DNA of 64,000 nucleotides from Haloarcula sp. H-GB4 (GCF_030848575.1 NZ_JAVDDX010000003.1:310001-374000); one strand, 5' to 3'; counted from the first letter of the stretch, positions 1,022 through 26,199 are shown. Numbers and translations are program-made. Notes: generated by a model not told the origin, from the letters alone.

Positions 1022-1675
1022 ATGTCAATAACGACTAAAATACATATCGAACACGAACGCCTCGCGCTGGTTCCAACCTTACAGAACCTCGAAGACGTAG
1101 CGATTCGTGTCATCACGCAGGGGAACACCGATCCGGGGTCCACCGTATTTCCATTCCTCATTGAGTATCCCGACAGGGACCGACTCGAAGAGATGCTTGA
1201 TGCTGACCCGACAGTCCAGAGCTACGAACTTGTCGACTGGACCGACCAGACCGGCATATACTATATCGAACACACCCCACAAACGAAACTCATCAGCTCT
1301 GTCGTTACTGATGTCAACGGATTTCTCGTCCATACAGAGACAAAGAGCAACGGCTGGCTCGTCCGACTGTTGCTCCCTGACCGCGAGGCACTCAATACGA
1401 TCTGGGAGTATGCAAACGAGAACGACATTTCTCTCGATATCATCGAAATATACGGAAATACGGACACCGGCGGTGAGTCGTCATACGGGTTGACCGACGA
1501 ACAACTGACTGCGCTAATAACTGCATATGAACACGGCTATTTCGGAGAACCAAGGGATATCTCTCTGAACGAAGTTGCCGACGAAATTGGCCTGTCCTCA
1601 ACAGCGATGAGCGGCAGACTCCGTCGTGGAATGCGGAACCTCATTGCGGCAACAATAATTGATAGAGAGAAGTAA
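1022..1675 (+). CDS. HTH-10 (Bat-type) transcriptional regulator
   Basis: This 217-residue protein is a haloarchaeal transcription factor of the bacterio-opsin activator (Bat) group. Residues 1-155 form the sensor-like region that usually precedes this HTH. The C-terminal 60 residues are the HTH-10 domain: GLTDEQLTALITAYEHGYF, then ISLNEVADEIGLSSTAMSGRLRRG, a helix-turn-helix with the typical pattern of Leu/Ala and a final recognition helix. There are no PAS or GAF repeats, so this is the short form of the family. The ATG lies directly after an AT-rich stretch, suggesting a leaderless or short-leader transcript. The target is unknown; the neighbouring nitrilase is one candidate. Confidence 0.85.
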   Translation: MSITTKIHIEHERLALVPTLQNLEDVAIRVITQGNTDPGSTVFPFLIEYPDRDRLEEMLDADPTVQSYELVDWTDQTGIYYIEHTPQTKLISSVVTDVNGFLVHTETKSNGWLVRLLLPDREALNTIWEYANENDISLDIIEIYGNTDTGGESSYGLTDEQLTALITAYEHGYFGEPRDISLNEVADEIGLSSTAMSGRLRRGMRNLIAATIIDREK

Positions 1676-2253: not shown

Positions 2254-2745
2254 ATGAAACTCTCACTGATCGCCGCCGTCGCGGCTAACGGTGTGATCGG
2301 TGCCGCCGGCGACATCCCGTGGCAGTATCCCGAGGATCTGACACATTTCAAACAGACAACTGTCGGCCATCCGGTGATTATGGGGCGGCGGACCTTCGAG
2401 AGTATTCGGCGTGGTCTTGATGGCCCGCTGCCGGAGCGGCTGAACATTGTTTTGACCACGGCGCCGCAGCAACTTCCAGACAGTGTCACGGCCGTTACCT
2501 CGACGACGGCGGCATTGGCCGAAGCGGCCGATAGTGACGCATCTACGGCGTATGTTATTGGCGGGGCGACAGTGTACGAGCAGTTTCTCCCACAGGCCGA
2601 CGAACTCATTCTGACCGAACTAACAGCAGCTTTCGACGGCGATACGGTCTTTCCGACAGTCGACTGGTCGCACTGGACTGAGACGGAACGAACGACTCAT
2701 AGCGAATTTGCTATTGTGAGATACACTCGAACCAGCAGCGACTAG
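2254..2745 (+). CDS. folA: Dihydrofolate reductase
   Basis: This 163-residue enzyme reduces dihydrofolate to tetrahydrofolate with NADPH. It shows the classical DHFR fold signatures: an N-terminal [13 protein letters not shown] strand and Met20-like loop, W23, the acidic active-site motif PEDL with D28 matching E. coli D27, the cofactor segment [12 protein letters not shown], and the late Gly-rich [13 protein letters not shown]. The length equals typical bacterial and haloarchaeal DHFRs (about 160). It supplies the THF that the demethylating enzymes nearby would use. In Haloferax such genes are called hdrA or hdrB; I cannot tell which ortholog this is. Confidence 0.93.
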
Positions 2746-2988: not shown

Positions 2989-4365
2989 ATGACCGGTAAC
3001 GAGGAACATCCTAACTATCCCAGTGTCGACCAGTCAGACCGGACCGTCCCCCGTAACCTCCGCCAGACTGGTGACCCCAACATCGAGATGTTGGTGTCGA
3101 CGCGCGTTCGAAAGTCCCCGTTCTTCCACAAGTCCTTCAATGAGGAGGGCGCCTGGCGGGCGACCGTCTACAACCGCCTCTATCACCCGCGTGGCCTCAT
3201 CGAACCCGAGGACGGTGGGGTGATGAAAGAGTACGACGCACTGACCAACACTGTCACCCTCTGGGATGTCGCCGTAGAGCGTCAGGTCCGGGTCAAGGGA
3301 CCCGACGCCGAGGCGCTGACGAACTATGTCGTCACCCGTGATGTGACAGGCATGGACGCCATGGACGGAAAGTACGTCATCCTGTGTAACGAAGATGGCG
3401 GCATCCTGAACGACCCAGTGTTGCTCCGCCCCGAGGAAGACGAGTTCTGGTTCTCTATCTCGGACTCGACGCTGATGCAGTGGTTACAGGGTGTCAACGT
3501 CGACAACGACTTTGATGTTGAAATCGACGAGATCGACGTGGCGCCGATGCAGATTCAGGGCCCGCGCTCCGAGGACGTGATGATTGATGTCGTCGGCGAC
3601 AAGGTCAGTGACGTGCCGTACTACGGCTTGATGGACGCCGAAATCGACGGTTGTGACGTGTTGATTAGCCAGACTGGCTTCTCGGGCGAGAAAGGCTTCG
3701 AAATCTACGTCAAAGACGCAATGGAAAACGCCGAGCGCGTCTGGGACCCTGTCATGGAGTCTGTCAAGGACCACGGCGGCCGCCAGATCGCACCTGGCCA
3801 TCACCGCCGTATCGCCGCCGGCATCATGTCCTGGGGACAGGACATGGACCACGAAACGTCCCCGTTCCAGGTCAACCTCGGCTACCACGTCCCCGACGAC
3901 AAAGAAGCCAACTACATCGGCAGAGAGGCGCTCGAAGCACAGAAAGAACAGATCGAGAACGGCAACTATCCGTTCGAGCACAAACTCATCGGACTGAAGA
4001 TTGCTGGCGAGCCAATCCGTGACTACGCCCCGGACTTCTGGCTCATCTCCGATCCGGATACCGGTGAGGAGTGTGGCTACCTCACGTCCCCGTGGTGGAA
4101 TCCGGACTTAGAGACCAACATCGGGATGGGATTCGTCCCAGCCGAGAAGATTCAGGAAGTCAGCGATACGCCGCTCAACGACGAAATATACGACGAGGAA
4201 CTGGATCTGGAGTTCCAGGTCCACCTCCCCGATGAGTACGCCGAGGAATCCGGCGAGCCGGTGTTTGCGACCGCCGCGAAGGTGCCATTCAAGGAGTCTG
4301 TCAATCCGAGCGCCCGCGAGCAAGCGAAGCTCAACGCCCGGAAAGAGGCCGAAAGCGACGACTAG
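2989..4365 (+). CDS. DmdA-like GcvT-family THF methyltransferase
   Basis: This 458-residue protein belongs to the GcvT/aminomethyltransferase family and most resembles the DMSP demethylase DmdA branch. DmdA moves a methyl group from dimethylsulfoniopropionate to THF, giving 5-methyl-THF. Diagnostic stretches are TVYNRL near residue 57, WDVAVERQVRVKG near 93-105, GGILNDPVL, MQIQGPRSEDVM and SGEKGFEIYV; the first two match the DmdA signature better than glycine-cleavage T-protein. It is about 90 residues longer than typical DmdA because of a C-terminal extension. A TTTATTA box lies about 30 bases upstream of the ATG. The convergent neighbour is MetF, which would oxidise 5-methyl-THF. The substrate could be DMSP, glycine betaine or a related compound. 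Confidence 0.8.
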   Translation: MTGNEEHPNYPSVDQSDRTVPRNLRQTGDPNIEMLVSTRVRKSPFFHKSFNEEGAWRATVYNRLYHPRGLIEPEDGGVMKEYDALTNTVTLWDVAVERQVRVKGPDAEALTNYVVTRDVTGMDAMDGKYVILCNEDGGILNDPVLLRPEEDEFWFSISDSTLMQWLQGVNVDNDFDVEIDEIDVAPMQIQGPRSEDVMIDVVGDKVSDVPYYGLMDAEIDGCDVLISQTGFSGEKGFEIYVKDAMENAERVWDPVMESVKDHGGRQIAPGHHRRIAAGIMSWGQDMDHETSPFQVNLGYHVPDDKEANYIGREALEAQKEQIENGNYPFEHKLIGLKIAGEPIRDYAPDFWLISDPDTGEECGYLTSPWWNPDLETNIGMGFVPAEKIQEVSDTPLNDEIYDEELDLEFQVHLPDEYAEESGEPVFATAAKVPFKESVNPSAREQAKLNARKEAESDD

Positions 4366-4682
4366 CCCCCACTCCGTCTGTCCCAGCACCCTACTCGCTT
4401 ATTTTCGCCTGACACCTTTTTATGATGCAGATCACAGCACTCCGTCCCCACCAACATTGTTGTAGCGCGACATCGCGCTCACATGCCGATTGTTACTGCC
4501 GCTCTGCAGCCGTACAGATGCGGCCATATAGATGCGGCGTGGCGAATATTAATTCAGTTTCCTGCTGGACTGCGTTGGGGATAGTCTGGTCATAGTGGGG
4601 CCTGCTGACAGTTTCGGCTCGCAAGGCTGTCGAAAACAGAGTGTAGCTGGCTGTCCCGGGTCTGGACAGTAGCCGGTCAGGT
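4366..4682. other. Convergent intergenic region
   Basis: This gap lies between the 3' ends of the DmdA-like and metF genes. It contains a T-run (CTTTTTAT at about 4417) that may terminate the plus-strand transcript and a short direct repeat, AGATGCGGC, present twice 14 bases apart near 4516-4540. No gene is visible. Confidence 0.4.
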
Positions 4683-5543
4683 TCAGGCGTCGAGACGCTT
4701 GTGCCGCCACTGCTCTGTGTCGGGCGTCTGATTAAACGTGTAGATGTGGACGCCGCGGATATTGTACTCGTCGTCTCCAACGTAGGGCGCGAGCCCATCG
4801 ATGAGTTCGTCGGGTTCGTAGGTCCCGCGGGAGCCGACCAGTTGCTTGACGAACCCAAGAATGCCCGTGGTCTTCCTGAGGAACTTTATCGAATCACCGA
4901 CGCCGACTTTCTGTGAGATTTGCATCAACCGCTGGTAGTTCATCACGCCCGGGATGCCCACTTCGACTGGGAGTTCGATACCGCGAGCACGGATGTCTTC
5001 GACCCACTCCAGCACGGCATCCGGGTCGTAACAGAGTTGTGTAACGATATACGTCGCGTACGGTGCTTTCTGTGCCATCGACTCCGCCAGCGTTTCGTCG
5101 TTGATGAAGTCGTGGCCCTCGGGGTAGCCCGTGATGCCTACCTCCTCGAAGGAGTACTGGGTCTCTTCGAGCGCTTCGAGCATGTCGAGCGCTGACTCGT
5201 ACTCACCGGCCGGTTCCTCGCGGTCGCCACCGGGAACGAAGATGTCCGTGATGCCCGCCTGTTCCAGTCGCTCGGCTATCGATTCGAGTTGGTCCCTGTC
5301 TTCCACGTAGCGGGCCGCGATATGTGGCACAACGTCGTACCCCATTTCGGCGGCTTCCGCCGTCTTTTCGACGGTCTTCTCGATGCCGAGCTGGGGCGAA
5401 GTCGTGATTGCGATAGTCGCATTGTCGGGGAGGTGGGTAATCTCCTCGTCGAAGCTCTCGAACGGCATCAGTTCAAACCGGGCGCTCGTCAGTAGCGTCC
5501 GGACACCCTGACTGTCTGAGACCGTGCGTGTTCCGAGGGCCAT
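4683..5543 (-). CDS. metF: Methylenetetrahydrofolate reductase
   Basis: This 286-residue flavoprotein interconverts 5,10-methylene-THF and 5-methyl-THF. It has the family motifs in order: FELMPF near residue 23 (the F-E-x-x-P start strand with the catalytic Glu), DVVPHIAAR near 90, PGGDREEP near 124 (the GD-x-P flavin motif), VGITGYPEGH near 156, and VTQLCYDPD near 188. Length fits the catalytic TIM barrel without the eukaryotic regulatory domain. Next to a DmdA-like demethylase its likely role is oxidation of methyl-THF during catabolism rather than only methionine supply, which is an inference. The promoter shares a 15-base element with the next gene upstream. Confidence 0.9.
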   Translation of the reverse strand: MALGTRTVSDSQGVRTLLTSARFELMPFESFDEEITHLPDNATIAITTSPQLGIEKTVEKTAEAAEMGYDVVPHIAARYVEDRDQLESIAERLEQAGITDIFVPGGDREEPAGEYESALDMLEALEETQYSFEEVGITGYPEGHDFINDETLAESMAQKAPYATYIVTQLCYDPDAVLEWVEDIRARGIELPVEVGIPGVMNYQRLMQISQKVGVGDSIKFLRKTTGILGFVKQLVGSRGTYEPDELIDGLAPYVGDDEYNIRGVHIYTFNQTPDTEQWRHKRLDA

Positions 5544-6962: not shown

Positions 6963-7919
6963 TTATCGCGGTATCGCAATACCCGCGAGTCGCTCCCCTT
7001 TCACGACAACAGACTCCCTGGCAAGCGAGAATATCACTCCCCGTTCTGTCGCTGAGACGATCTGTTGTTGCTCGAACGAGGCGGGCTCGTAGACGGTGCC
7101 CAGTCGCTCCCCGGCGTCGACAGTGTCGCCGACAGCGATGTCCGGTCGGCACTCAAACAACCCCGATTCCGATGCGGTGACTGGTTCCGCATCGTTTCGG
7201 AGCACCGTCTGCACAGCCTGTGGTTCCGGCTCCGCTGGGAGGACTGCCCACTCGCGCAGGAGATTCTGTATCCCGTCGACACCAGCTGCAACCGCATCCT
7301 GTGCTATCCGACGACTGTTCGACAGTTCTGCAGTGATGACCGGAATCCCGGCTTCCGCAGCCGCAGCGCGGAACGTCCCACCCGACCCGTCGTCGCCGGC
7401 GTCCTCGTGACCGTCGGTGAGTCTGTAGGAAGTGCCGAACGCTTCGGCGAGGCGCTGGGCGGCTTCGTCGTCCGCCCGGCACCGGACGTGTTCCAGCATA
7501 TCTGCCGTGCCGGTGTGGAGATCGACTGCTGCGTCGGCGTCTTTCACGAGTTCCCACAGCCGAGCGGCAAACTGTTCCTGTAGGCTTCCGGACTCGTCGC
7601 CCGGCCACACACGGTTCAGGTTCGGATTCATCACGTCGTACTCGCCAGGGGTCATATATGACCGGTGGTCGAACGCGAGCTGGTTCACTACCGGGACGAC
7701 GAGTACCGTCCCAGCGATGGCCGCGCCGGTCAGGCGGCCGTGCAGTCGACGTAACGCGGCTGGGCCGTTGAGTTCGATGCCGTGTTGCGCCGCCTGAATG
7801 TACACTGTCGGCCCGGGGCTGCCGACGTACTGGTGGACAGTCACAGACACGTCTCGACCCGACGGTAACCGTCCAAGCCGTCGGTCAGTCGTCGTATGCG
7901 TGACGGCCGTGTAGTCCAT
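6963..7919 (-). CDS. Succinylglutamate desuccinylase/aspartoacylase (AstE/AspA) family protein
   Basis: This 318-residue enzyme is a zinc carboxypeptidase-fold amidohydrolase that removes acyl groups from amino acids or related amines. The zinc site is visible as AAQHGIELNG near residue 43 (H-x-x-E) and DLHTG near 147 (second His). The segment MNPNLNRVWPG carries the N-x-N-R substrate-binding residues. The C-terminal 80 residues form a beta-barrel-like domain. The ATG at 7919 is chosen because the frame upstream is not conserved-looking. Relatives include N-acetyl-diaminobutyrate deacetylase of ectoine breakdown, so a second osmolyte-related role is possible. The exact substrate cannot be read from sequence. 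Confidence 0.8.
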   Translation of the reverse strand: MDYTAVTHTTTDRRLGRLPSGRDVSVTVHQYVGSPGPTVYIQAAQHGIELNGPAALRRLHGRLTGAAIAGTVLVVPVVNQLAFDHRSYMTPGEYDVMNPNLNRVWPGDESGSLQEQFAARLWELVKDADAAVDLHTGTADMLEHVRCRADDEAAQRLAEAFGTSYRLTDGHEDAGDDGSGGTFRAAAAEAGIPVITAELSNSRRIAQDAVAAGVDGIQNLLREWAVLPAEPEPQAVQTVLRNDAEPVTASESGLFECRPDIAVGDTVDAGERLGTVYEPASFEQQQIVSATERGVIFSLARESVVVKGERLAGIAIPR

Positions 7920-8288
7920 ATCACTGCCTGATGGCGTGCAAACAAAAAACGCTGGGAGGAGGAGCGCCACTGTGCCACATGGAGTGATACTGTGATACTC
8001 CCCCGGAACAGAGGCACCCCGATACAGCGGCCCTCAATGGTGTGAGAGCGTCATGTGGAAAATGTTGTGTGGTCACTGTTAACACATAAGCCGACAGTAC
8101 AATCTGATAGTTGGGAGCAATTAGAAGCTTTTGAACATAAGTGGCAACCACCATAGGGGGACCAAATTTATTAACAATGGTACTCCTGTTATTCTGAAAC
8201 ACTACGTGATAAAACAATGTCAGTTTGCAAAAGCGGTGGGTCAGGCGGTAACTATATTGCCACGCCATAGCACGTTCTACGCAGAGTT
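7920..8288. other. Divergent promoter region
   Basis: This gap separates the AstE/AspA-like gene from the first FAD/GcvT gene. It is AT-rich, with AAATTTATTAAC near 8163 and a TATATT box near 8253, about 34 bases before the ATG at 8289. No gene is visible. Confidence 0.45.
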
Positions 8289-10859
8289 ATGGAGCCTACC
8301 GATAGCCTGCCGACCCAGACCGATACCGTCATCGTCGGTGCTGGAATCGTCGGCTGTAACATCGCCTATCAGCTGACAGAGCTCGGCCGCGAGGACGTGG
8401 TCGTGGTCGATCAGGGGCCGATGCCGACCACGGGTGGATCGTCGACGCACGCCCCCGGAATCATGTTTCAGACCGCGGAACCGAAGGTCCTCAGCCAGTT
8501 TGCGGACTACAGCCGACGGCTGTACTCGGACCTCGAAGGCGCGGACGGACATCAGGCCTACAACGAAACAGGTGGCATCGAAGTCGCACGCAGCGAGGAG
8601 CGCATGGATTTCCTCCAGCGCCGCGTCGAGTATGCGAACGCCTGGGGCATCGAGGACCCGCAGTTACTCTCGCCCGAAGAAGTCACCGAGCACCTCCCGC
8701 TGGTCGACGCCGACCAGATCAAGGGCGGCTACTACTCCCCGACAGACGGGCAGGTCTCGGGTGTCGTCGCCTGCGATGCGCTGGCCAGGGAAGCGATGGA
8801 TAGGGGTGCGAAGTTCGTCCCACACACGCGCACCGAGAACGTCGAGACAGAGGACGGCTCGGTACAGGCTGTCGTCACGGAGAACGGCAGTATCGAGTGC
8901 AACGAGGTGGTGGTAGCGACGAACATCTGGGCCCGCCAGCTCGGCGAGAAACTCGACGTGCACCTGCCCGTAACGCCGGTCGAGCACCAGTACACGATGA
9001 CGGAGTCCCTCGATGAACTGGCCGACAGCGCGGTCGACATTACCGACCACCCGCTGTTCGAGAACTACGAGAACGTCTCCGGAGAGAAGGCGAAGCGACT
9101 TCTCGTTGGGCCGGACCGCCCGATTCTCCGTGACCAGGACAACGCGATGTACTATCGGAATCACGGGGATTCCTACGGTATCGGCTCGTACAACCACGAC
9201 CCTATCGTGCCTGACCCGCAGGACCTCGGCGGGAACGATCCAGACGGCGAACAAGGGTCCGTCCACGAGTTCACGGACTACCACATGGACAACGCGACCC
9301 ATCCGGATCGGCCGGACAAGGCGCCGCGTCAGGCCAGCGATGAACTGCTCCCTGCGACGGCCGGCAAGGAGCTCGAACACAAGTACAACGGGATGTTCGC
9401 AGAGTCGCCGAACGGTCTCCCCGTGATGGGTCCCGTTCAAGAATACGACGGCCTCTGGACGGCGGCGGCCATCTGGGTCACGCACGCCGGCGGTGCCGGC
9501 AAAGCACTTGCCGAGTGGATGGAACACGGCGTTCCACGGCTCCCTGACGGTCCGATTGACCTCGCCCATTGTGACGTGAACCGCTTCGACGAGCACGAGG
9601 GCAGCTGGGACTTCGCTCGGGATATCGGTGGTGAGGAGTACCGCATCGTCTACAACATCATGCACCCCAAGTGGGTCTGGACCGACAAACAGCGGGACAT
9701 CCGCCGAACCCCGATGTATCACACCCACAAGAAGTATGACGCCGAATTGTGGGCCGAGGCCGGCTGGGAGGAACCACACTGGTTTGACTCCAACGCCGAC
9801 CTGCTGGCGGAGTACGGCGACCGGATTCCGGACCGCGAGGGCTGGGAGGCGAAGTACTGGTCGCCGATCGAGGGTGCCGAGGCGCTGAACGTCCGCAACA
9901 ACGTCGGCCTCCACGACATGACCTCGTTCAACAAGATGGAGGTCATCGGGAGCGACGCCGGCGAGTTCGTCCAGTACCTCTGTACGAACGACATGGACAT
10001 CGACGTGGGCGACGTGAAGTACACGCTGATGTGCAACGAAGGCGGTGGCGTCCGGGCGGACATCACGGTCACGCGAACCGGCGAGGACCGCTATCTCCTG
10101 CTGACGACGGGTCGCGAAGTCGGGAATAACCACGTCGCGTGGGTGCGCGAACAGTCCCCTGACGACGTGGTCGTCAACGACGTGACCTCCAGCCTCGCCG
10201 CGATGGTCTGTACTGGCCCGAACGCCCGGAAGGTTCTCTCGAAGGTCACCGACATCGACCTCTCCGACGACGCCTTCCCGTTCTTCACGAGCCAGCAGTT
10301 CTTCGTCAAGAACATCCCCGTGACTGCGCTCCGCGTCTCCTATGCGGGTGAACTCGGCTGGGAGTTCTACACGCCCTCGGAGTACGGCGAGCGCCTCTGG
10401 GAGCACATCATGGAGGCCGGCGAGGAGTACGGTATCCGCCCGTACGGCAACGGCGCACTCAATTCCCTTCGAATCGAGAAGGGGTTCCGACTCTGGGGGA
10501 AGGACCTCCACACGGAGCATAATCCCTACGAGGCCGGCCTCGGCTGGGCCGTCGACCTCGAAACCGACTTCATCGGCAAGGAGGCGGTCGCGGCGGCCGC
10601 CGACGGCGACAACATCAACCACAAAGTCGCCTGCCTGACACTCGACGACGAGGACGCCGTCGTGTTGGATAACAAGCCGGTCCTCGACGGCGACGACACC
10701 ATTGGTTACCTCCATAGCGCCGAGTACGGCTACACCGTCGGCGCTTGCGTCGCCTACACGTACCTGCCGCCCGAATACGCCGAACCGGGGACGAGTGTCG
10801 AAATCCTCTACGAGGGGGACCGATACGACGCCACTGTCCGCGAGGAACCGCTCGTCTGA
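8289..10859 (+). CDS. FAD-dependent oxidoreductase/GcvT fusion (dimethylglycine/sarcosine dehydrogenase-like), copy 1
   Basis: This 856-residue protein has the architecture of dimethylglycine and sarcosine dehydrogenases. The N-terminal DAO domain (about 1-400) starts with an FAD-binding GAGIVG (G17-G22). It carries His54 in GGSSTHAPG at the position of the covalently flavinylated His of the family. A central linker domain (about 400-520) follows. The C-terminal GcvT-type domain (about 530-856) contains ALRVSYAGELGWEFY and LRIEKGFRLWGKDL and binds THF. The enzyme would demethylate an N-methylated amino acid and pass formaldehyde to THF as methylene-THF. The second copy follows in tandem. Which of dimethylglycine and sarcosine it uses is not visible. 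Confidence 0.85.
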   Translation: MEPTDSLPTQTDTVIVGAGIVGCNIAYQLTELGREDVVVVDQGPMPTTGGSSTHAPGIMFQTAEPKVLSQFADYSRRLYSDLEGADGHQAYNETGGIEVARSEERMDFLQRRVEYANAWGIEDPQLLSPEEVTEHLPLVDADQIKGGYYSPTDGQVSGVVACDALAREAMDRGAKFVPHTRTENVETEDGSVQAVVTENGSIECNEVVVATNIWARQLGEKLDVHLPVTPVEHQYTMTESLDELADSAVDITDHPLFENYENVSGEKAKRLLVGPDRPILRDQDNAMYYRNHGDSYGIGSYNHDPIVPDPQDLGGNDPDGEQGSVHEFTDYHMDNATHPDRPDKAPRQASDELLPATAGKELEHKYNGMFAESPNGLPVMGPVQEYDGLWTAAAIWVTHAGGAGKALAEWMEHGVPRLPDGPIDLAHCDVNRFDEHEGSWDFARDIGGEEYRIVYNIMHPKWVWTDKQRDIRRTPMYHTHKKYDAELWAEAGWEEPHWFDSNADLLAEYGDRIPDREGWEAKYWSPIEGAEALNVRNNVGLHDMTSFNKMEVIGSDAGEFVQYLCTNDMDIDVGDVKYTLMCNEGGGVRADITVTRTGEDRYLLLTTGREVGNNHVAWVREQSPDDVVVNDVTSSLAAMVCTGPNARKVLSKVTDIDLSDDAFPFFTSQQFFVKNIPVTALRVSYAGELGWEFYTPSEYGERLWEHIMEAGEEYGIRPYGNGALNSLRIEKGFRLWGKDLHTEHNPYEAGLGWAVDLETDFIGKEAVAAAADGDNINHKVACLTLDDEDAVVLDNKPVLDGDDTIGYLHSAEYGYTVGACVAYTYLPPEYAEPGTSVEILYEGDRYDATVREEPLV

Positions 10860-11074: not shown

Positions 11075-13627
11075 ATGAGCACAGAGACTCCCCCATCTCG
11101 GGCGGATACTGTCGTTATCGGTGCCGGGGCCGTCGGGTGTAGCGTCGCGTATCACCTGACGGAACTCGGCGCGGAGGACGTTGCCGTCATCGACCAGGGA
11201 CCGCTCCCGGTCACTGGCGGCTCATCGGTCCACGCCCCTGGGATAATGTTCCAGACCTCGCCGTCGAAGATACAAACAAAGACAGCCTACTACACCAGTC
11301 GGCTCCTTTCGGACGCCGGCGTCTACGACGAGGTGGGTGGCATCGAAGTGGCCCGCAGCGAGGAGCGCATGGACTTCCTCCGTCGGCGTGTCGAGTGGGC
11401 GACTTCCTACGGACTGCCGGAACCACAGTTGCTCTCGCCTGAGGAGGTCACCGAGCACCTTCCGATGGTCGACGAAGACGAAATCCTCGGTGGCTACTAC
11501 TCGCCGACCGACGGGCGCGTTGACGGTATCGGCGCGCTCCAGTGGTACATGGAGCACTCCTCGGCGTCTTTCTACGGAAACACGGAGGTCACGGATCTGG
11601 ATGTTTCGGGGGGCGAGATCAACGCCGTCGAGACGGACCAGGGCGGAATCGACTGCGAGCGAGCGGTTATTGCGACGAACAACTGGGGCTACCAGACCGG
11701 CCAACTGGCCGGACTCGACCTCCCAATTGCCCCGGTCGAGCACCAGTACGTCGTCACGGAACCGATGGACGAACTCGCCGACACCGAATCCTCCGTCGGC
11801 GACAACACGACGGGGCTAGACGTTCCGGGGGATCGCTCTATCGCGGAGTACATGAGCGAAGGGCCACACCAGCCCGTCGGCCGCGACCAGGACCACTCGC
11901 TGTACTTCCGAACCCACGGCGATGCCTTCGGAATGGGGTCGTACAATCACGAGACGCTCTCGGTCGATCCCGAAGCGATGGGGAAGAACACCGAGGAACA
12001 TCAGGCGTCAGTTAGAGGGTTCACGAAAGAACACTGGGATACGCCGACCCACCGCGGCCGGGACAAGTCCGCGAAACAGGCCTTCGACGAACTGCTACCG
12101 GCGACACAGGACGTGGAATACGAGGCCACCGAGAACGGTATCTTCGTCTTCACGCCCGACGGGATGCCGGCCGTCGGCGAGACGGCGCAGGTCGACGGCC
12201 TCTGGACGGGGCTGGCCATCTGGTGGACCCACTCCGGCGGCTACGGCCGCATCCTTGCCGAGTGGATGGAGAACGGCGTTCCCCGGTTGCCGTCCGGCCC
12301 GGTCGACACCGGCGGCATCCACGTCCGACGGTTCGAACCCCACGCGGGCGAGAAGGACTACTTTGTCGACCGCGGGGCCAAGCGCTACGAGCAGGTGTAC
12401 AGCATTGTCGAGCCGCGGTGGCAGCCTAATGACCACCGCACGCTCCGGACGAGTCCATTCTACCACCAGCAGAAGGAACTCGGTGCGGAGTTCTACCAGA
12501 GCGGCGGCTGGGAGACACCACAGTGGTACGAGTCAAACGCCGACCTCGTTGAGAAGTACGACGACCGGATTCCTGACCAGGACGGCTGGCAGGGCGTCAA
12601 TCGCTCGAAGATCGAGGCCGCGGAGCATCTCCACACCCGCGAGAATGTGTCGATGTTCGACATGACGACGTTCAGTTCGATTATGGTCGAAGGTGAGGGG
12701 AGCCAGTCGTTCCTCCAGCGGGTCTGTAGCAACGACATGGACCTCGATGTCGGCCAGGTACGGTACTCGCTGCTGCTGAACGAGGGTGGCGGCATCCTCG
12801 CCGATATCACTGTCGTCAAACTCGACGACGAGGAATTCATGGTGACGACCGGTGGCGGGAACTCTCCCGGTATCCACGGCGGCCACCTCGAAGACGAAGC
12901 GCCTGCGACGGTGTCGGTCCACGTTGAAGAAGGTGCAAAATCCACAATCGGCCTCTGGGGACCGAACGCGCGGCTCCTCCTCCAGCGATGTACAGACGCG
13001 GACGTGACAAACGAGGGCTTCCCGTACTTCAGCGCCAAGCAGATGTACGTTGGCGACGTGCCGGTCATCGCGCTGCGGGTCTCGTACGTCGGCGAGCTCG
13101 GGTGGGAGCTGTGGGCTCCGACGGAGTACGGCCAGCGACTTTGGGAGACGCTGCAGGACGCTGGAGAGGATCTCGGGGTTCGGCCGATGGGCGGCGGCGC
13201 GCTCAGTTCCATGCGACTCGAGAAGGGCTACCGACTCTGGGGGACGGACATCGATACGGACTCGAACCCTTTCGAGGCCGGCCTTCCCTTTGCCGTGGAT
13301 ATGGATACCGAGTTCATCGGCAAGGCGGCCCTAGAAACCGCACGCGAGGAAGGTATCGACAGCAAAATCACGCCGCTCACGCTCGACGACTCGACAGACA
13401 TCATGCTAAGTGGGCGACCAGTGCTCAAAGACGGCGACGCGATTGGCTACGTGCAGGCCGGGAACTACGGCTACAGTCTCGGCGAGTCAATCGCGTACAC
13501 GTATGTTCCAACCGAACACGCTGAAGCCGGCACGTCGGTTCAGATCCAGTGCGAGGGCGAGACATACGACGCGACCGTACGCGACGAGCCGCTGTTCGAC
13601 CCGACCCGGGAGCGAATCATCAAATAA
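11075..13627 (+). CDS. FAD-dependent oxidoreductase/GcvT fusion (dimethylglycine/sarcosine dehydrogenase-like), copy 2
   Basis: This 850-residue paralog of the preceding gene has the same domain order: DAO domain with GAGAVG (G16-G21), His53 in GGSSVHAPG, linker, and C-terminal GcvT domain with ALRVSYVGELGWELW and MRLEKGYRLWGTDI. Long stretches are shared with copy 1 (for example GGIEVARSEERMDFL), but differences are spread through the whole length, so the duplication is old and the two enzymes probably differ in substrate. A simple reading is that one acts on dimethylglycine and the other on sarcosine. The dehydratase gene follows after 56 bases and may be co-transcribed. Confidence 0.85.
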   Translation: MSTETPPSRADTVVIGAGAVGCSVAYHLTELGAEDVAVIDQGPLPVTGGSSVHAPGIMFQTSPSKIQTKTAYYTSRLLSDAGVYDEVGGIEVARSEERMDFLRRRVEWATSYGLPEPQLLSPEEVTEHLPMVDEDEILGGYYSPTDGRVDGIGALQWYMEHSSASFYGNTEVTDLDVSGGEINAVETDQGGIDCERAVIATNNWGYQTGQLAGLDLPIAPVEHQYVVTEPMDELADTESSVGDNTTGLDVPGDRSIAEYMSEGPHQPVGRDQDHSLYFRTHGDAFGMGSYNHETLSVDPEAMGKNTEEHQASVRGFTKEHWDTPTHRGRDKSAKQAFDELLPATQDVEYEATENGIFVFTPDGMPAVGETAQVDGLWTGLAIWWTHSGGYGRILAEWMENGVPRLPSGPVDTGGIHVRRFEPHAGEKDYFVDRGAKRYEQVYSIVEPRWQPNDHRTLRTSPFYHQQKELGAEFYQSGGWETPQWYESNADLVEKYDDRIPDQDGWQGVNRSKIEAAEHLHTRENVSMFDMTTFSSIMVEGEGSQSFLQRVCSNDMDLDVGQVRYSLLLNEGGGILADITVVKLDDEEFMVTTGGGNSPGIHGGHLEDEAPATVSVHVEEGAKSTIGLWGPNARLLLQRCTDADVTNEGFPYFSAKQMYVGDVPVIALRVSYVGELGWELWAPTEYGQRLWETLQDAGEDLGVRPMGGGALSSMRLEKGYRLWGTDIDTDSNPFEAGLPFAVDMDTEFIGKAALETAREEGIDSKITPLTLDDSTDIMLSGRPVLKDGDAIGYVQAGNYGYSLGESIAYTYVPTEHAEAGTSVQIQCEGETYDATVRDEPLFDPTRERIIK

Positions 13628-13683
13628 CAGGACAGCGCAATGCCCCAACAACTTTGATAGCAGGCCCGAGACGATATCAACAT

Positions 13684-14946
13684 ATGACACAAACTGAATC
13701 GGACACGCTGTCCATCACATACGCAGATATCGAACGAGCCCGCGAACGTCTGGACGACGACACAGTTGTAAAGAAAACGCCAGTCGAACGCAGCTCGTCC
13801 CTTGGTGGGTTCGTTGACGCCGAGGTGTACCTGAAGATGGAGCACCTCCAATGGACAGGGTCGTTCAAAACCAGAGGTGCGTATAACAAAATCTCGCAGG
13901 ATGTCGCCGATGGTGTGGAATCCTTTGTCGCCGCCAGCGCCGGGAATCACGCACAGGGCGTCGCCCTTGCCGCGACGAAATGCGGGGCAGAGTCGACGAT
14001 TTTCATGCCGGAAAACGCACCACAGGCCAAGATCGACGCCACAAGGTCCTACGGCGGAAGCGTCGAACTGGTCGGCAACGACTTTCAGGAGACGATGTCC
14101 CACGCCAAAGCTGTCGTCGAGGAAACCGACGCTGAGTTCGTTCACGCCTACGACGATCTAGATATCATTGCCGGACAGGGGACCCTCGGTACGGAAATGT
14201 ACCACGACTGCCCCGATGTCGACACGGTCATCGTCCCCATCGGCGGCGGTGGACTTATCAGCGGTGTCTCGACCGCAATCAAGCACCTCTCGCCCGAGAC
14301 GCGCGTCGTCGGCGTTCAGGCGACCGGCGCGGAGACGGTGCACGAAAGCCTCGACAAGGGGATTCCGGTCGTGCTTGATGAAGTTGACACCATTGCCGAC
14401 GGTATCGCCACCGGCGGTATCTCGGAGACGACACTTGACATCATCGAGGCGAACGTTGACGAGGTTGTGACGGTTTCGGACACCGACATCGCACAGGCAA
14501 TTCTCCTGTTGATGGAACGGGCAAAGCAGGTTGTGGAAGGTGCTGGGGCCGCCTCCGTGGCCGCCGTACTGAGTGATGGCCTTGACGTATCGGGCGAAAC
14601 TGTGATGCCACTGCTCTGTGGCGGGAACCTCGACATGACACAAATGCGAGAGGTTCTCATCCATGCGCTCACCGAGCGCCAGCAACTCCTCCAGCTCCGG
14701 GTTCGTATCGACGACCAGCCAGGCGTGATGGAGGAAATATCGGGCGTTATCGCCCGGCAAGGGGCCAATATCCACGACGTTCGGCACGAACGGTCTGTCG
14801 AGAATCTCGAAATCGGGGAGGCGTATCTCGTATTCAACGTCGAGACCAGCGGTGCCGAGCACGCACAGACCATCATCACAGCGATACGCGACGCGGGCTA
14901 TCCCGTCGATAACGTTGCACGGGAAGCGAAAAGCAGCGCATTGTAA
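13684..14946 (+). CDS. Serine/threonine ammonia-lyase with C-terminal ACT domain
   Basis: This 420-residue PLP enzyme deaminates threonine to 2-oxobutyrate or serine to pyruvate. The PLP lysine is K62 in GSFKTRGAYNK, the phosphate-binding loop is IGGGGLISG near 186-193, and the C-terminal part from about residue 335 is an ACT-like regulatory domain (RVRIDDQPGVMEEISGV). Length equals the catabolic TdcB/IlvA type with one ACT domain. The start at 13684 is chosen since the frame further upstream overlaps the preceding gene. Placement behind the demethylases suggests it turns serine, made from glycine plus methylene-THF, into pyruvate. A biosynthetic isoleucine role is the alternative. Confidence 0.88.
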   Translation: MTQTESDTLSITYADIERARERLDDDTVVKKTPVERSSSLGGFVDAEVYLKMEHLQWTGSFKTRGAYNKISQDVADGVESFVAASAGNHAQGVALAATKCGAESTIFMPENAPQAKIDATRSYGGSVELVGNDFQETMSHAKAVVEETDAEFVHAYDDLDIIAGQGTLGTEMYHDCPDVDTVIVPIGGGGLISGVSTAIKHLSPETRVVGVQATGAETVHESLDKGIPVVLDEVDTIADGIATGGISETTLDIIEANVDEVVTVSDTDIAQAILLLMERAKQVVEGAGAASVAAVLSDGLDVSGETVMPLLCGGNLDMTQMREVLIHALTERQQLLQLRVRIDDQPGVMEEISGVIARQGANIHDVRHERSVENLEIGEAYLVFNVETSGAEHAQTIITAIRDAGYPVDNVAREAKSSAL

Positions 14947-16064: not shown

Positions 16065-17825
16065 ATGTCAGACAGTGACGACCAAACCGGCGAGATGTCG
16101 GACGGGCTTCAGGTAGAACTGTTCCACCCGGAGTCCGACCGCGAGCCCGGTGACACAAACATTCAGGCGGCTGGATTTGACATCCACCCGGTGGTATTCC
16201 CGGTGGCGCTGGCGATCATTGCGTTATTTGTCGCAGTCACGGTACTGCTGGGTGACACAGCAGCCTCCGCGTACACGTGGCTGTTCAACACTATCGGAGA
16301 CACCTTCGGCTGGTTCTACCTGCTGGCGGTGAACGTGTTCATTATTACATTGCTGTACTTCGCGTTCAGCAAGTACGGCAATATCAAAATCGGTGGCGTG
16401 GAGGCAGAAAAGGAGTTCAGCGATTTCTCCTGGATGGCGATGCTGTTCAGCGCCGGCATGGGGATCGGACTCATGTTCTTCAGCGTCTCGGAACCGCTGT
16501 ACTACTTCCAGAACCCGCCGAGTTTCTTCGGAGCGGAAGCCGGAACCGGTGCGGCAGCGTCCGCCGCGATGGCACAGACATTCTTCCACTGGGGCTTTCA
16601 TCCGTGGGCGGTGTACGGCCTCGTGGGACTCGGCCTCGCGTTCTTTTCATTCAACCGCGGGCTCCCACTCACATTCCGGTCGATATTCTGGCCCCTGCTC
16701 GGTGAGCGGATTTACGGCTGGCCGGGCCACATTATCGATCTCGTGACAGTGTTCGCTACGCTGTTCGGGCTGTCAACCTCGCTGGGACTCGGTGTTGCAC
16801 AGGTCAACACGGGCCTCTCATACGTGGGCGGAGACATGCTCGGTGCGGTGAGTATCCCGACAGGGACCTTGCCGCAAGTCGTGCTCATCGCTGGTATCAC
16901 GCTTATCGCGACGCTCTCGGTTGCGGCGGGGCTTGACGGCGGTGTCAAGCGGCTGAGCACGCTCAACCTCTACCTGATGTTCGCACTGCTTGGGTTCCTC
17001 GCTATCGTGGGCCCAACGGTGTACATCTTCAGTTCTTGGGTAGAAGGACTCGGCGCGTACTTCGGGAACATCCTCGCGCTCGGGTTCTTCACCGGCACAC
17101 TCAACGAGGCCTCAAACGGGACCGTCACTGCATGGACCGTGTTCTACTGGGGCTGGTGGATCGCGTGGTCGCCGTTCGTCGGGATGTTCATCGCACGCAT
17201 TTCGAAGGGGCGGTCCGTCCGGGAGTTTGTCCTGGGCGTCCTGTTCCTTCCGTCGCTGTTCTCGACGCTCTGGCTGTCGGTGTTCGGCGGCAGCGCGATG
17301 TTCAATTCACTGATGGGGAACGGACAGGCGCTGGCGACGTATAACGAAGTCGGCCAGACCGTCGCGATGTTTGCCCTGCTGGAGCAGTTCCCGCTTGGCG
17401 TGATTAGCGGCCTGTTGGCAACGTTGCTGGTCATCACGTTCTTCGTCACGTCGTCGGACTCGGGGTCACTGGTCATCGACCACCTGACTTCGGGCGGGAA
17501 ACACGACGTTCCGCGAACGCAGCGAATCTTCTGGGCACTCACTGAAGGGCTTGTCGCGTCGATCCTGCTCATCGGCGGCGGACTGACTGCGCTCCAGACG
17601 GCCGCAATCACCACGGGACTCCCGTTCGCAGCCATCCTGTGTCTGATGTGTTATACGGTGTATCTGGGGCTCGATAACGAGTACCAGATACTCGAGTCCG
17701 AGGAGTTTGCAGAGACAATTCAGGATCTCTCTGAACGGGATGACGTGGACGTCGTGACCTCTGGTGACGAGATGGTAACGGATATCTCCGACCCAGGAGA
17801 CGACACTGCTACAGGCACTGACTGA
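16065..17825 (+). CDS. BCCT-family transporter, betaine-type
   Basis: This 586-residue integral membrane protein belongs to the betaine-choline-carnitine transporter family, with about 12 membrane helices. Hallmarks are the glycine-rich helix FSAGMGIGLMFF near residue 130, the stretch FFHWGFHPWAVYG near 175-187, the core motif YWGWWIAWSPFVGMFIARIS near 362-381, and SSDSGSLVID near 464. The glycine-rich loop reads GMGIG as in the sodium/betaine carrier BetP, not GMGID as in proton/choline carriers, which favours a betaine-like substrate. The cytosolic tails are short and acidic. It probably supplies the substrate of the demethylation enzymes encoded nearby; DMSP is another possible cargo. Confidence 0.9.
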   Translation: MSDSDDQTGEMSDGLQVELFHPESDREPGDTNIQAAGFDIHPVVFPVALAIIALFVAVTVLLGDTAASAYTWLFNTIGDTFGWFYLLAVNVFIITLLYFAFSKYGNIKIGGVEAEKEFSDFSWMAMLFSAGMGIGLMFFSVSEPLYYFQNPPSFFGAEAGTGAAASAAMAQTFFHWGFHPWAVYGLVGLGLAFFSFNRGLPLTFRSIFWPLLGERIYGWPGHIIDLVTVFATLFGLSTSLGLGVAQVNTGLSYVGGDMLGAVSIPTGTLPQVVLIAGITLIATLSVAAGLDGGVKRLSTLNLYLMFALLGFLAIVGPTVYIFSSWVEGLGAYFGNILALGFFTGTLNEASNGTVTAWTVFYWGWWIAWSPFVGMFIARISKGRSVREFVLGVLFLPSLFSTLWLSVFGGSAMFNSLMGNGQALATYNEVGQTVAMFALLEQFPLGVISGLLATLLVITFFVTSSDSGSLVIDHLTSGGKHDVPRTQRIFWALTEGLVASILLIGGGLTALQTAAITTGLPFAAILCLMCYTVYLGLDNEYQILESEEFAETIQDLSERDDVDVVTSGDEMVTDISDPGDDTATGTD

Positions 17826-19424: not shown

Positions 19425-21824
19425 TCATTGTTTCTGCGGCTCAGACGGTCGCGACGCTGTCGCTGATACCGTCTTGAGTACGGCGTTGTTCTCGGAGACG
19501 TCGTGGACCCTGATGGCGTCAGCCCCGCGTTCAGCAGCAAGCGCTGTCGTTGCTAGGGTCGGCGGCAGCCTGTCCGCTCCTGTGTCGCTCATGCCAGCAA
19601 ACATCGACTTCCGGGAGTGCCCGACCAGCACCGGACAACCGAGCGCATGGAACTCGTGGAGTCGGTCGACGAGTTCGAACGATTCGGCGGCGTTCTTCCC
19701 AAACCCACAGCCGGGGTCGACGATAATTTGCTCGCGGTCGATGCCGGCTTGCTCGGCGAGCAGTATCTGCTCCGTGAGGTCTCGAAGCACGTCATCGACG
19801 ACATCGTCGTAGGTCACAGTCCGACCTGGGTCCACCGGCGCAGACAGGCTGTGCATCAGGATAACGGACGCGTCGTGATCAGCAACCACAAACCGCATTT
19901 CGGGGTCCGACAGCCCCGACACGTCGTTGACGATGTCGGCGCCAGCACCCAGCGCCGCGTCAGCGACGGCGGCCTTTCGGGTATCTACGGAGACAGTCGT
20001 GTCAAGCGACGAAACGGCCTCTATGACCGGTACTACGCGATCAATTTCCGTTTCAATGGACACCGGCTCTGCCCCAGGACGCGTGCTCTCGCCGCCGACA
20101 TCGATGATATCCGCCCCGGATTCGATCATCTGTTCTGCGTGACTGATAGCAAGGTCGCGATGGTTGTACTCGCCGCCGTCGTGGAAACTATCCGGCGTAA
20201 CATTGAGAATACCCATCACGGCCGCCTCCTCACTATCGAACGGCGGCGGGAACGACCGCCCAGACAGCCTATCTTCGAGTTGCATGGCGAGGCGACTGAG
20301 CCCCAGCCCGGCCGAAGCCAGACGGTCAGTGAGCTGTTTAAATTGTCGCGGCGTCCCTGAAAGCGTCGTATCGACGAGTTTCTCCGGCATTCCGACAGCC
20401 GAACAGGTACACGTACCGCCACAGTCCTCGAACTCTTGTTTGACGACTCCTGCTTGGTCACGCCGCAACGTGACCGAGAGCATCTGCTGGTGAAGTTGTG
20501 GCTTCTTTCCGACTCCAGCAGTCTCTTCGGTGGACGCCTGCTGGAGAGTCTTTTTCGGAACGACGAGCCGACTCCAGCGGTCCCGAGCCTCGGCCACTGC
20601 GTAGAGTGAGCCGGCCACGAGCACGAAGTCGTCCGCGCCGGCCGCGGCTATGGCTCGTTCGGTAGCTTCGGGGACGGACTCAATCTGCTGTATCTGTGCT
20701 GCCTGCCCCTCAAACGCAGCAGCGAGCGATCCGGTGCCTGCGGCTCGGTCGACCGCCGGTTTCGTCGCGAAGGCCGTCTCGACGGCCGGAAGCGTCGCAA
20801 TCATCTGTTCGTACTCCTTGTCCTGCATCGCGGCGAAGACAACGTGGAGATTATCGTACTCGTATCGCTGGATAAGTGTCGTCAGCGTCTCCATCGCACC
20901 GGGGTTGTGAGAGCCATCGAGAACCACCATCGGGTCGGTCGACCGGATCTCGAATCGGCCCGGCAGCGTCGCAGCCCGCAGCCCCTCGGCAATAGTTTCC
21001 GTGTCTACGTCGGTGAGTTGTCGAGCCAGTGTCGCGGCGACGCCAGCGTTCTCCGCCTGATGCTGTCCAAGTAGCTTGAGGTTCGATTCGAGGGCCCAGT
21101 CCGGCCCCGTGAGCGCGATACGGTTCTCGACGGCCGAGCGCATGCCGTTTTCGACGGCCGTGACATCGGCCGCCTCATCACCGACCGTGACAGTGTCGGT
21201 AATCCCCTGAACCGAATCGAGAGCAGCGCCGGTCGTTCCCGTCACAAGTGGGGCGTCTCTGGGGCTGACCTGCGCTTTGTCGCGAGCGATCTCCTCGACT
21301 GTGTCGCCGAGCAGGTCAGTGTGTTCTAAACTGATACTGGTGACAGCGCTTGCGACGGGATCGACTGCGCTTGTTGCGTCGTACCGGCCGCCAATACCGA
21401 CTTCCAGTACTGCCACGTCGACATCTTCGACATCGAAGTGATAGAACGCCAGCGCCGTGAGTACCTCGAAATGCGTCGGCTTGTCGTCCTCGGCAGCCAG
21501 TTGGTCGATACAGGGATCTATCTGTTCGACGAACTCCGTCACTCGCTCTTTCGGTACCCGACCGCCGTTGACCGTGATTTGCTCCCGGAAACCGTTCAAT
21601 CCTGGCGAGGTGAACAGGCCGACATCGAGCCCGGCGGCTCTGAGCACACTCTCGGTCATTCGGGCGGTACTTCCCTTTCCGTTCGACCCAGCGATCTGCA
21701 CGCTGTCGAAACTGTCGTCCGGGTCACCGAGATGCGAGAGCATCCGCGCCGTCGTATCGGTCCCCAACTTGGGCCGACGACGCTGTAGTGACTGCAGGTA
21801 GTCCGCCGACTCGTGGTACTCCAT
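19425..21824 (-). CDS. folCP: FolC-FolP fusion: dihydrofolate synthase/dihydropteroate synthase
   Basis: This 799-residue protein joins two folate-synthesis enzymes. The N-terminal Mur-ligase-type FolC domain has the ATP loop IAGSNGKGSTARM (residues 44-56), the GIGGRYDAT motif and DGSHNPGA. The C-terminal domain (from about 520) is dihydropteroate synthase, with VMGILNVTPDSFHDGG, VGGESTRPGA, DTRKAAVAD, NDVSG and VGHSRKSMF. The enzyme makes dihydropteroate from pterin diphosphate and p-aminobenzoate and adds glutamate. A bifunctional protein of this type is known from Haloferax volcanii. The ATG at 21824 is chosen over an upstream frame that extends to 21920 because the FolC N-terminus starts there. 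Confidence 0.92.
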   Translation of the reverse strand: MEYHESADYLQSLQRRRPKLGTDTTARMLSHLGDPDDSFDSVQIAGSNGKGSTARMTESVLRAAGLDVGLFTSPGLNGFREQITVNGGRVPKERVTEFVEQIDPCIDQLAAEDDKPTHFEVLTALAFYHFDVEDVDVAVLEVGIGGRYDATSAVDPVASAVTSISLEHTDLLGDTVEEIARDKAQVSPRDAPLVTGTTGAALDSVQGITDTVTVGDEAADVTAVENGMRSAVENRIALTGPDWALESNLKLLGQHQAENAGVAATLARQLTDVDTETIAEGLRAATLPGRFEIRSTDPMVVLDGSHNPGAMETLTTLIQRYEYDNLHVVFAAMQDKEYEQMIATLPAVETAFATKPAVDRAAGTGSLAAAFEGQAAQIQQIESVPEATERAIAAAGADDFVLVAGSLYAVAEARDRWSRLVVPKKTLQQASTEETAGVGKKPQLHQQMLSVTLRRDQAGVVKQEFEDCGGTCTCSAVGMPEKLVDTTLSGTPRQFKQLTDRLASAGLGLSRLAMQLEDRLSGRSFPPPFDSEEAAVMGILNVTPDSFHDGGEYNHRDLAISHAEQMIESGADIIDVGGESTRPGAEPVSIETEIDRVVPVIEAVSSLDTTVSVDTRKAAVADAALGAGADIVNDVSGLSDPEMRFVVADHDASVILMHSLSAPVDPGRTVTYDDVVDDVLRDLTEQILLAEQAGIDREQIIVDPGCGFGKNAAESFELVDRLHEFHALGCPVLVGHSRKSMFAGMSDTGADRLPPTLATTALAAERGADAIRVHDVSENNAVLKTVSATASRPSEPQKQ

Positions 21825-22149
21825 AGCACAATTGGGCGGCGGCGGCCTGATTAATTTATCGCCAGAGCGAATCTGCCTCGATATCACGTACCCAAGTAAC
21901 GTAGCCAATTCGGGCTTCAATCGGTGTAAAACCTAAATACTGGACCTGAAGCTGCGGTCAAGTAATCTCGCAAATTCTGCCTTTGCGGCCACTGTCGGCT
22001 GACCTGCTGTCAGATCTGTGAACAGATCTCGTAAGCCGAGATACATGATGTGGCTTCTAGGGTCTGCAACGGCATCTCGAACACATCCTATCCCGGTAGT
22101 GTCAGTTTCACTAACATTATTACGACGGTGCAGGGAAGAGCTAACTGAG
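21825..22149. other. Divergent promoter region, folCP/fhs
   Basis: This 325-base gap holds the promoters of folCP (minus) and fhs (plus). On the minus strand TAAATTAAT at 21851-21859 is a candidate TATA box for folCP, and AACATTATTA near 22111-22120 is one for fhs about 30 bases before its ATG. No gene is visible. Confidence 0.4.
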
Positions 22150-23980: not shown

Positions 23981-24574
23981 TCACCGCTTCGCGTTTGTGA
24001 CCGCTTCGTCGAGCGCCGCTTCGCCGGCCACTTCTGCTTCGTCTGCCCGCTGTTTCATCGCTGCCACGAATGATTCGTCGTCTATCATGTCAAGATTGGC
24101 CCGGACAGTCGAGACGGACGCCCGTAGCGCCGCTGCCGCGAGCAGCACCCCGACAGTCGCGTCCGGGACGGCGACCGGCGTCCCCTTCGCAGTCACCGTA
24201 CGGGCGTGCTCGACGACGTCGAGACAGACCTCGGCCGTCTCTAGTGGCACCTCTGTCGAGCGTTTCGAGGCCGCCTGAATCCGGTTGTCGTTCCCGGATT
24301 CGAACGCGGCCCCGACCGCGTCGACCGCTGCCGCGTCCTCGTCAGCAAGGGCAAGCAGCCGTGCCCGGCTATCGGCCAGCGCATCCGCCAGAGCCGCTAA
24401 TTCACCGAAGTCTGCACTGGGCTCGTCAGCACTGACGGTGTGGATGCAGACCATCTCACAGAGCGCCGCGCCCATCGCCCCGCCGATGGCCGCGACCGCG
24501 CCACCGCTCGGAGTTACCTGCCCCGACGCGACTTCGTCGAGAAACTCGCCGATTGGCTGGTCCCCGAAGGTCAT
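23981..24574 (-). CDS. Cyclodeaminase/cyclohydrolase family protein (FchA/FTCD-C type)
   Basis: This 197-residue protein belongs to the formiminotransferase-cyclodeaminase C-terminal family, which includes methenyl-THF cyclohydrolase FchA. It begins with the typical IGEFLDEVASGQVTPSGGAVAAIGGAMGAAL, where TPSGGAVAA is the family hallmark, and is alpha-helical throughout with GTPVAVPDATVGVLLAAAAL. It converges on fhs. In this setting it would turn 5,10-methenyl-THF into 10-formyl-THF, the substrate of Fhs. A cyclodeaminase role in histidine breakdown is the alternative, but no hut genes are nearby. The ATG at 24574 is preferred over 24628. Confidence 0.85.
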   Translation of the reverse strand: MTFGDQPIGEFLDEVASGQVTPSGGAVAAIGGAMGAALCEMVCIHTVSADEPSADFGELAALADALADSRARLLALADEDAAAVDAVGAAFESGNDNRIQAASKRSTEVPLETAEVCLDVVEHARTVTAKGTPVAVPDATVGVLLAAAALRASVSTVRANLDMIDDESFVAAMKQRADEAEVAGEAALDEAVTNAKR

Positions 24575-24726
24575 TTGTCGGCCACAGTGCCAGTCGTCTC
24601 TGGTGATTGACTGCCCATACTGCACCACTCTCGGCCCACTTGCCTAATGGTTTCCCTGAAGGTATTCGAACGCCATGTGGGCCCTCCCGTCACAAAGGCT
24701 ATGACTGGGCTGTGTCAAGACGAAGT

Positions 24727-25985: not shown

Positions 25986-26199
25986 TACAAGCAAACAGGG
26001 GGACTCGACGTACAAAGTCTCTGTTCCCCATCAGTTCACTACTCGAATAACAGTGGTAACATTGTGATTTCGCACCACAACGTATCACCGACTGTGAATA
26101 TCCTGTATTACAAGAATGTTCAATGAGTCCCCCACATGTCAGTAAATGCGTTCCTGTTGACCGACGGGCCAGCCGCAACGTTGCTTTCGTAACGCTGTT

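Follow-up and report, generated by a model that had tools for sequence, protein, structure and literature searches.

In salt lakes, glycine betaine is among the major osmolytes. Demethylations by the GcvT family are known for a sulfonium substrate (DmdA) and for aryl methyl ethers (LigM); to our knowledge, no enzyme of this family demethylates a quaternary ammonium compound directly with tetrahydrofolate (THF). The Rieske betaine monooxygenase GbcAB, which acts on betaine to give dimethylglycine, requires oxygen and releases formaldehyde. MtgBCD with MetF2 in Ruegeria pomeroyi, and MtgABC in Desulfitobacterium, pass a betaine methyl group to THF, and after this step come MetF2, a serine ammonia-lyase and genes for the oxidation of THF; MtgBCD relies on corrinoid proteins together with an enzyme of the PF06253 family. 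In R. pomeroyi on betaine, the MetF paralogue MetF2 is the most induced protein and is thought to oxidise methyl-THF, and a serine ammonia-lyase and THF oxidation enzymes are also induced, a set equivalent to the one described below (PMC12478193). In Sphingobium SYK-6, the MTHFR of that strain (S6MTHFR) is reported to oxidise the 5-methyl-THF formed by LigM, a GcvT-derived demethylase (PMC12585457). Dimethylglycine oxidase and BCCT genes have been noted in haloarchaea since 2011, and the survey concerned does not appear to name a first enzyme (PMC3102087).

Gene content of the locus

The window, that is, the whole stretch of 64,000 nucleotides analysed here, lies within a 4.19-Mb haloarchaeal genome, and the same locus is carried by Haloarcula species; in Haloarcula hispanica, a laboratory strain, the DmdA-like gene is present at 95.6% identity. 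The gene at 2989..4365 (plus strand) encodes a 458-aa DmdA-like protein (PF01571, 7.7e-43), a candidate THF-dependent methyltransferase and, as we propose, a betaine demethylase. A dihydrofolate reductase gene (2254..2745, plus strand; PF00186, 5e-50) is located directly upstream of it. The candidate regulator of the locus is a BAT/HTH_10 protein (1022..1675, plus strand; PF04967, 6.1e-16), with a member of the same protein cluster at 18 of the 27 main-clade loci. A scan for sigma-70-type promoters gave no match, which is uninformative for archaea. The minus strand encodes a 286-aa MetF (4683..5543; PF02219, 7.6e-15), an adjoining 400-aa protein (5622-6824) that matches no Pfam or NCBIfam model and is conserved beside MetF in 7/27 loci, and an AstE/AspA-like amidohydrolase (6963..7970; PF24827, 1e-29), a conserved neighbour that is likewise found in 7/27.

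The dimethylglycine dehydrogenase-like genes that a preliminary description had placed downstream encode two flavoproteins of DAO-FAO_M-GCV_T architecture on the plus strand. The first (8289..10859) is dimethylglycine oxidase/dehydrogenase-like and matches 1pj5 over its full length (9e-175); the second (11075..13627), dimethylglycine/sarcosine oxidase-like, is about 50% identical to it. They are followed by a threonine/serine ammonia-lyase (13549..14946, plus strand; TIGR01127, 436.7 bits, above the cutoff of 378.75), also a conserved neighbour, whose start is probably downstream of 13549. A transporter of the betaine/choline/trimethylamine type (BCCT; 16065..17825, plus strand) scores above the cutoff of TIGR00842 (467.7 bits), and below that of the betaine BCCT model NF047988 (517 bits, cutoff 650). 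Its PDB matches are headed by the trimethylamine transporter 8zw8, then BetT and BetP, with DddT among them. Sequence comparison of the transporter was rejected as a test of substrate, the top match being a trimethylamine transporter.

Folate genes complete the set: a fused folate-synthesis protein combining Mur ligase/FolC and dihydropteroate synthase (19425..21920, minus strand; PF00809, 1.1e-80, PF02875, PF08245), formate-tetrahydrofolate ligase (FTHFS; 22018..23895, plus strand; PF01268, 3.9e-242), an FTCD_C protein that is possibly an FchA-type methenyl-THF cyclohydrolase (23981..24628, minus strand; PF04961, 4.7e-41), and GTP cyclohydrolase I (FolE; 25368..26015, minus strand; PF01227, 2.1e-50). 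Genes found near the orthologues in other haloarchaea encode SHMT, FolD, FTHFS, PabB and the BAT/HTH_10 regulator. An open frame at 29492-30244 (plus strand) fuses a C-terminal piece of a PEP-utiliser with a PTS IIB domain; these are remnants of a sugar PTS within a haloarchaeal genome.

Judged by sequence, this gene content is coherent for the conversion of betaine through dimethylglycine, sarcosine and glycine to serine and pyruvate, in which folate would carry every methyl group. The BCCT transporter would import glycine betaine. The 458-aa protein would bind THF in its GcvT/DmdA fold and move an N-methyl group of betaine to it, giving dimethylglycine and 5-methyl-THF, and the adjoining MetF, working in the oxidative direction, would convert the latter to 5,10-methylene-THF. 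The two flavoproteins would remove the remaining methyl groups of dimethylglycine and sarcosine, with the methylene passed to THF inside the GcvT domain of each protein. Serine could then be formed from glycine and methylene-THF and be turned into pyruvate by the ammonia-lyase, and excess one-carbon units would leave through FolD/FchA and formate-THF ligase as formate, with formation of ATP. The whole of this pathway, with a THF-dependent betaine demethylase at its head, is our best reading of the locus, and we lean towards it moderately. Glycine betaine itself is the best choice of substrate and a fairly probable one.

Pairing with MetF and apparent exchange with Rieske proteins

In the window, the DmdA-like gene and metF point towards each other, and their stop codons are 317 bp apart; therefore, they are neighbours and do not form a co-transcribed pair in this genome. 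Their direct pairing, as claimed at the outset, holds for position, with co-occurrence in 39/39 genomes, and fails as a single operon here. At seven loci of other haloarchaea both genes are adjacent on one strand, the DmdA-like gene being first.

An orthologue of the DmdA-like protein is present in 39 of the 194 haloarchaeal genomes (73-100% identity), with a gap separating these from ordinary GcvT proteins, which stand at about 35%. The MetF of the window as a query matches 40 genomes, and PF02219 matches exactly 40, namely the same 39 and one more (G057), which has MetF and folate genes and lacks the DmdA-like gene. The two genes are at most 12 kb apart in 32 of the 39 genomes. Since 39 genomes are common to both among 194, the pairing is not due to chance. 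The Fisher values for the association (3e-40, and 2e-13 at the genus level) ignore relatedness and should be read alongside the pattern within genera: in four mixed genera, the DmdA-like protein, MetF and dimethylglycine oxidase are jointly present or jointly absent, the negatives including a species from the same genus as the window. Statements on genome-wide presence and absence rest here on family searches.

Described enzymes for the first step of betaine breakdown were searched for in the genome of the window. It has no match to PF00848 (the Rieske alpha subunit, GbcA) at E<=1e-10, to PF02574 (BHMT type) or to PF06253 (MTTB/MtgB). In 20 haloarchaea, dimethylglycine oxidase is present (at least 44% identity) and the DmdA-like protein is absent. 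A Rieske protein is encoded within 12 kb of the dimethylglycine oxidase in 18 of these 20, versus 6 of the 39 genomes with the DmdA-like protein (Fisher p 3e-8, relatedness being ignored). The remaining module (ammonia-lyase, BCCT, SHMT and FolD) is retained in the Rieske-bearing loci; thus, the DmdA-like protein and the Rieske protein seem to replace one another. This swap is the strongest evidence on which step the DmdA-like protein catalyses. GbcA-like genes occupy the same slot in other haloarchaea, and the step proposed for both is that from betaine to dimethylglycine. It agrees with the earlier suggestion of a replacement for GbcA or MtgB. The proposed enzyme would differ from GbcAB and MtgBCD in using neither oxygen nor a corrinoid. 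We give even chances to the broader proposal of a DmdA-like enzyme class that moves a quaternary-ammonium methyl group from betaine directly to THF and that shares one haloarchaeal betaine and one-carbon module with Rieske and corrinoid enzymes as interchangeable front ends.

If the proposal is correct, a THF-dependent betaine demethylase supplies the missing first enzyme and permits a previously undescribed breakdown of betaine without oxygen or vitamin B12. It would spare the oxygen and reductant that a Rieske enzyme spends, oxygen being scarce in brine, would add a new reaction to the GcvT/DmdA family, and would account for the presence of MetF in only a minority of haloarchaea.

Alternatively, the protein could use THF to demethylate a different N-methylated osmolyte (proline betaine, carnitine, choline, trimethylamine or an N-methyl amino acid), with a product that joins the same pathway. 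We regard this as rather unlikely, even with a trimethylamine transporter as the first PDB match of the BCCT. Representatives of the replacing Rieske proteins have a carnitine monooxygenase as their top PDB match, with a 4qup-type demethylase also close; among curated models, however, GbcA gives them their highest score (NF058607; 137-142 bits, cutoff 670). Carnitine or proline-betaine genes are not adjacent, and the flavoproteins align with dimethylglycine oxidase from end to end. A further point in favour of this alternative is a second, paralogous haloarchaeal clade, 63-70% identical to the protein of the window and found at seven loci that have no MetF, betaine or folate neighbours; one of its copies (G030:C5) is split into two fragments.

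On plasmid pNG700 of Haloarcula marismortui, a Rieske oxygenase gene (22061-23577 of the retrieved locus) is inserted between the two dimethylglycine oxidase genes, and the DmdA-like gene is also kept; the Rieske pair of that locus is absent from the genome of the window. Growth data from the 2011 survey are a complication for the betaine reading: adding betaine brought no improvement for Haloquadratum walsbyi, and no growth on betaine was obtained with Halorhabdus utahensis (PMC3102087).

The DmdA-like protein and its relatives

Among curated models, the 458-aa protein scores best with the DMSP demethylase NF009133 (248.5 bits), below the equivalog cutoff of 410; the DmdA of Phaeobacter, a positive control, reaches 600 bits. 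It falls below the cutoffs of both GcvT models (NF001567, 157 bits, cutoff 300; TIGR00528, 136.9 bits, cutoff 235.85), which are exceeded by a true GcvT elsewhere in the same genome (414.9 and 318.4 bits). In the PDB sequence search, DmdA of Pelagibacter ubique (3tfh) is the top match (1.8e-43), with an alignment that covers the N-terminal region of the protein; the matches to GcvT stop short of that region. By its sequence, the protein thus falls with the DmdA-like members of the GcvT family and not with GcvT itself. The assignment points to transfer of methyl rather than methylene, as had been supposed, and the label 'glycine cleavage system protein T' carried by the orthologues on Haloarcula plasmids is very likely a misnomer.

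The AlphaFold (AF2) model of the protein has the three-domain DmdA/GcvT fold (pLDDT 86.1, pTM 0.84), and its closest PDB fold is 3tfh (TM 0.93 by target length). The input to this model included bacterial relatives; a haloarchaeal-only input gave pLDDT 54.5 and was set aside. The folate-site Glu and Tyr (E204 and Y206 in 3tfh numbering) and the Asn-Asp pair at the position of the catalytic Asp are retained. In contrast to this common fold and folate site, identity to DmdA is about 30%, the protein has an extra C-terminal stretch, and in 21/21 haloarchaeal proteins Phe takes the place of the pocket Trp197 of 3tfh, Gln that of Arg194, and SGEKG or similar that of the SKQGG motif. Comparison with the structure of DmdA, proposed in the preliminary description, therefore gave agreement in the fold and disagreement at the pocket Trp. 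This Trp (W171 in that work, W197 in 3tfh) has been named as key for DMSP (PMC7487153). W197 was tried and rejected as a separator of DMSP-linked from folate/BCCT-linked bacterial relatives. It is weak evidence, because Trp is present in both bacterial contexts and a true DmdA, the dmdBCD-linked one of Phaeobacter, has Tyr at this position.

In the phylogenetic tree, the haloarchaeal proteins form a single clade (SH-aLRT 100). A large marine bacterial clade (98) and DmdA (99) stand beside it, the branching order among the three being unsettled. The bacterial clade, with members from Marinobacterium, Halomonas, SAR11 and roseobacters, is at 34-39% identity, and its genes have neighbours of two types: acyl-CoA ligase, enoyl-CoA hydratase, OsmC and SBP56 genes, or PurU, MetF, FolD and BCCT genes. 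Given its separate clade and the differences in pocket and motif, the haloarchaeal protein should not be classed as DmdA, even if it is DmdA-like in its working.

A true DMSP demethylase, with DMSP entering through the BCCT and being split into methylmercaptopropionate and a methyl-THF that MetF oxidises, is in our view unlikely. DmdA is indeed the closest solved structure and model, BCCT carriers can transport DMSP (DddT is among the matches noted above), and the closest bacterial sister clade is often associated with genes of DMSP type, its first kind of neighbourhood including acyl-CoA ligase, enoyl-CoA hydratase, OsmC and SBP56. Against this stand the score below the DmdA cutoff, the missing SKQGG motif and Trp197, the tight coupling to dimethylglycine oxidase and the swap with a GbcA-like Rieske protein. 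The haloarchaeal gene is surrounded by betaine and folate genes rather than by dmdBCD: no genes of dmdB, dmdC or dmdD type were found at 1-22 kb of the window, among the genes tested beyond, or at the orthologous loci retrieved, in line with what had been stated for this DNA. Generic enoyl-CoA hydratases are encoded elsewhere in the genome, the best being 32-34% identical to DmdD. The earlier preference for betaine over DMSP is thus upheld by the dimethylglycine oxidases, the BCCT, the ammonia-lyase and the folate genes together with these points, which argue for betaine as the probable substrate.

Two groups of bacterial loci deserve mention in their own right. A related DmdA-like gene, in two copies in some cases, occurs at seven Marinobacterium/Halomonas loci with PurU, MetF and/or FolD genes and, at some, a BCCT gene, forming a counterpart in bacteria to the module of the haloarchaea. 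At five Roseobacter loci the DmdA-like gene is accompanied by genes for OsmC, enoyl-CoA hydratase, acyl-CoA synthetase and sometimes SBP56 (methanethiol oxidase family); from its gene content, this cluster is perhaps an alternative set for DMSP demethylation without DmdC.

MetF and the direction of its reaction

The closest solved structure to the MetF of the window is that of S6MTHFR (7xg9; 7.7e-37, 32% identity over 261 positions), the second-best match reaching only 2e-12. E24, D107 and Q169 are common to both; we equate these with the catalytic residues of E. coli MetF. The two systems would be alike in combining a GcvT-derived THF-dependent demethylase with a short, methyl-THF-oxidising MetF; however, the substrates of LigM are vanillate-type aryl ethers, and its similarity to the haloarchaeal protein is only distant.

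By family search, PF02219 is absent from 154 of the 194 haloarchaea. The MetE-like methionine synthase family PF01717 is present in the genome of the window and in Haloferax volcanii, a control that has no match to PF02219. Therefore, MetF in the sense of the PF02219 family is dispensable for methionine in haloarchaea and is not part of their general methionine machinery. Its confinement, with one exception, to genomes with the DmdA-like protein, and the precedent of S6MTHFR as a backward-running MTHFR beside a THF-dependent demethylase, suggest that MetF oxidises 5-methyl-THF, as the preliminary description had assumed. On these grounds we consider it highly probable that a THF-dependent methyl transfer supplies an oxidising MetF. 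A GcvT-type aminomethyltransferase handling methylene, for glycine cleavage or as a partner of the flavoproteins, with MetF making methyl-THF for methionine, would suit the GCV_T domain, the plasmid annotation and the prediction that the split MetE of halophilic archaea uses methyl-pterins (PMC7857596), but is very improbable in view of the scores below both GcvT cutoffs, the true GcvT elsewhere in the genome, the flavoproteins' own GcvT domains and the MetF-less majority of haloarchaea, Haloferax volcanii with its PF01717 protein included.

Some genera fit the betaine reading less simply. In nine of the 39 genomes with the DmdA-like protein, the only dimethylglycine-oxidase homologue is a 38-39% paralogue, and five of the nine also carry an MTTB-type enzyme. 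An MTTB protein occurs in 6/194 genomes, all six of them DmdA-like positive. In one genome (G007, locus L193, 3497-16344), where the DmdA-like protein may be redundant or act on a different compound, genes for MTTB, the corrinoid activator RACo, an MtrH-like methyltransferase, MetF and FolD lie together. From its gene content, this cluster resembles a corrinoid system that passes methyl groups to THF and so would serve as a front end to the same MetF.
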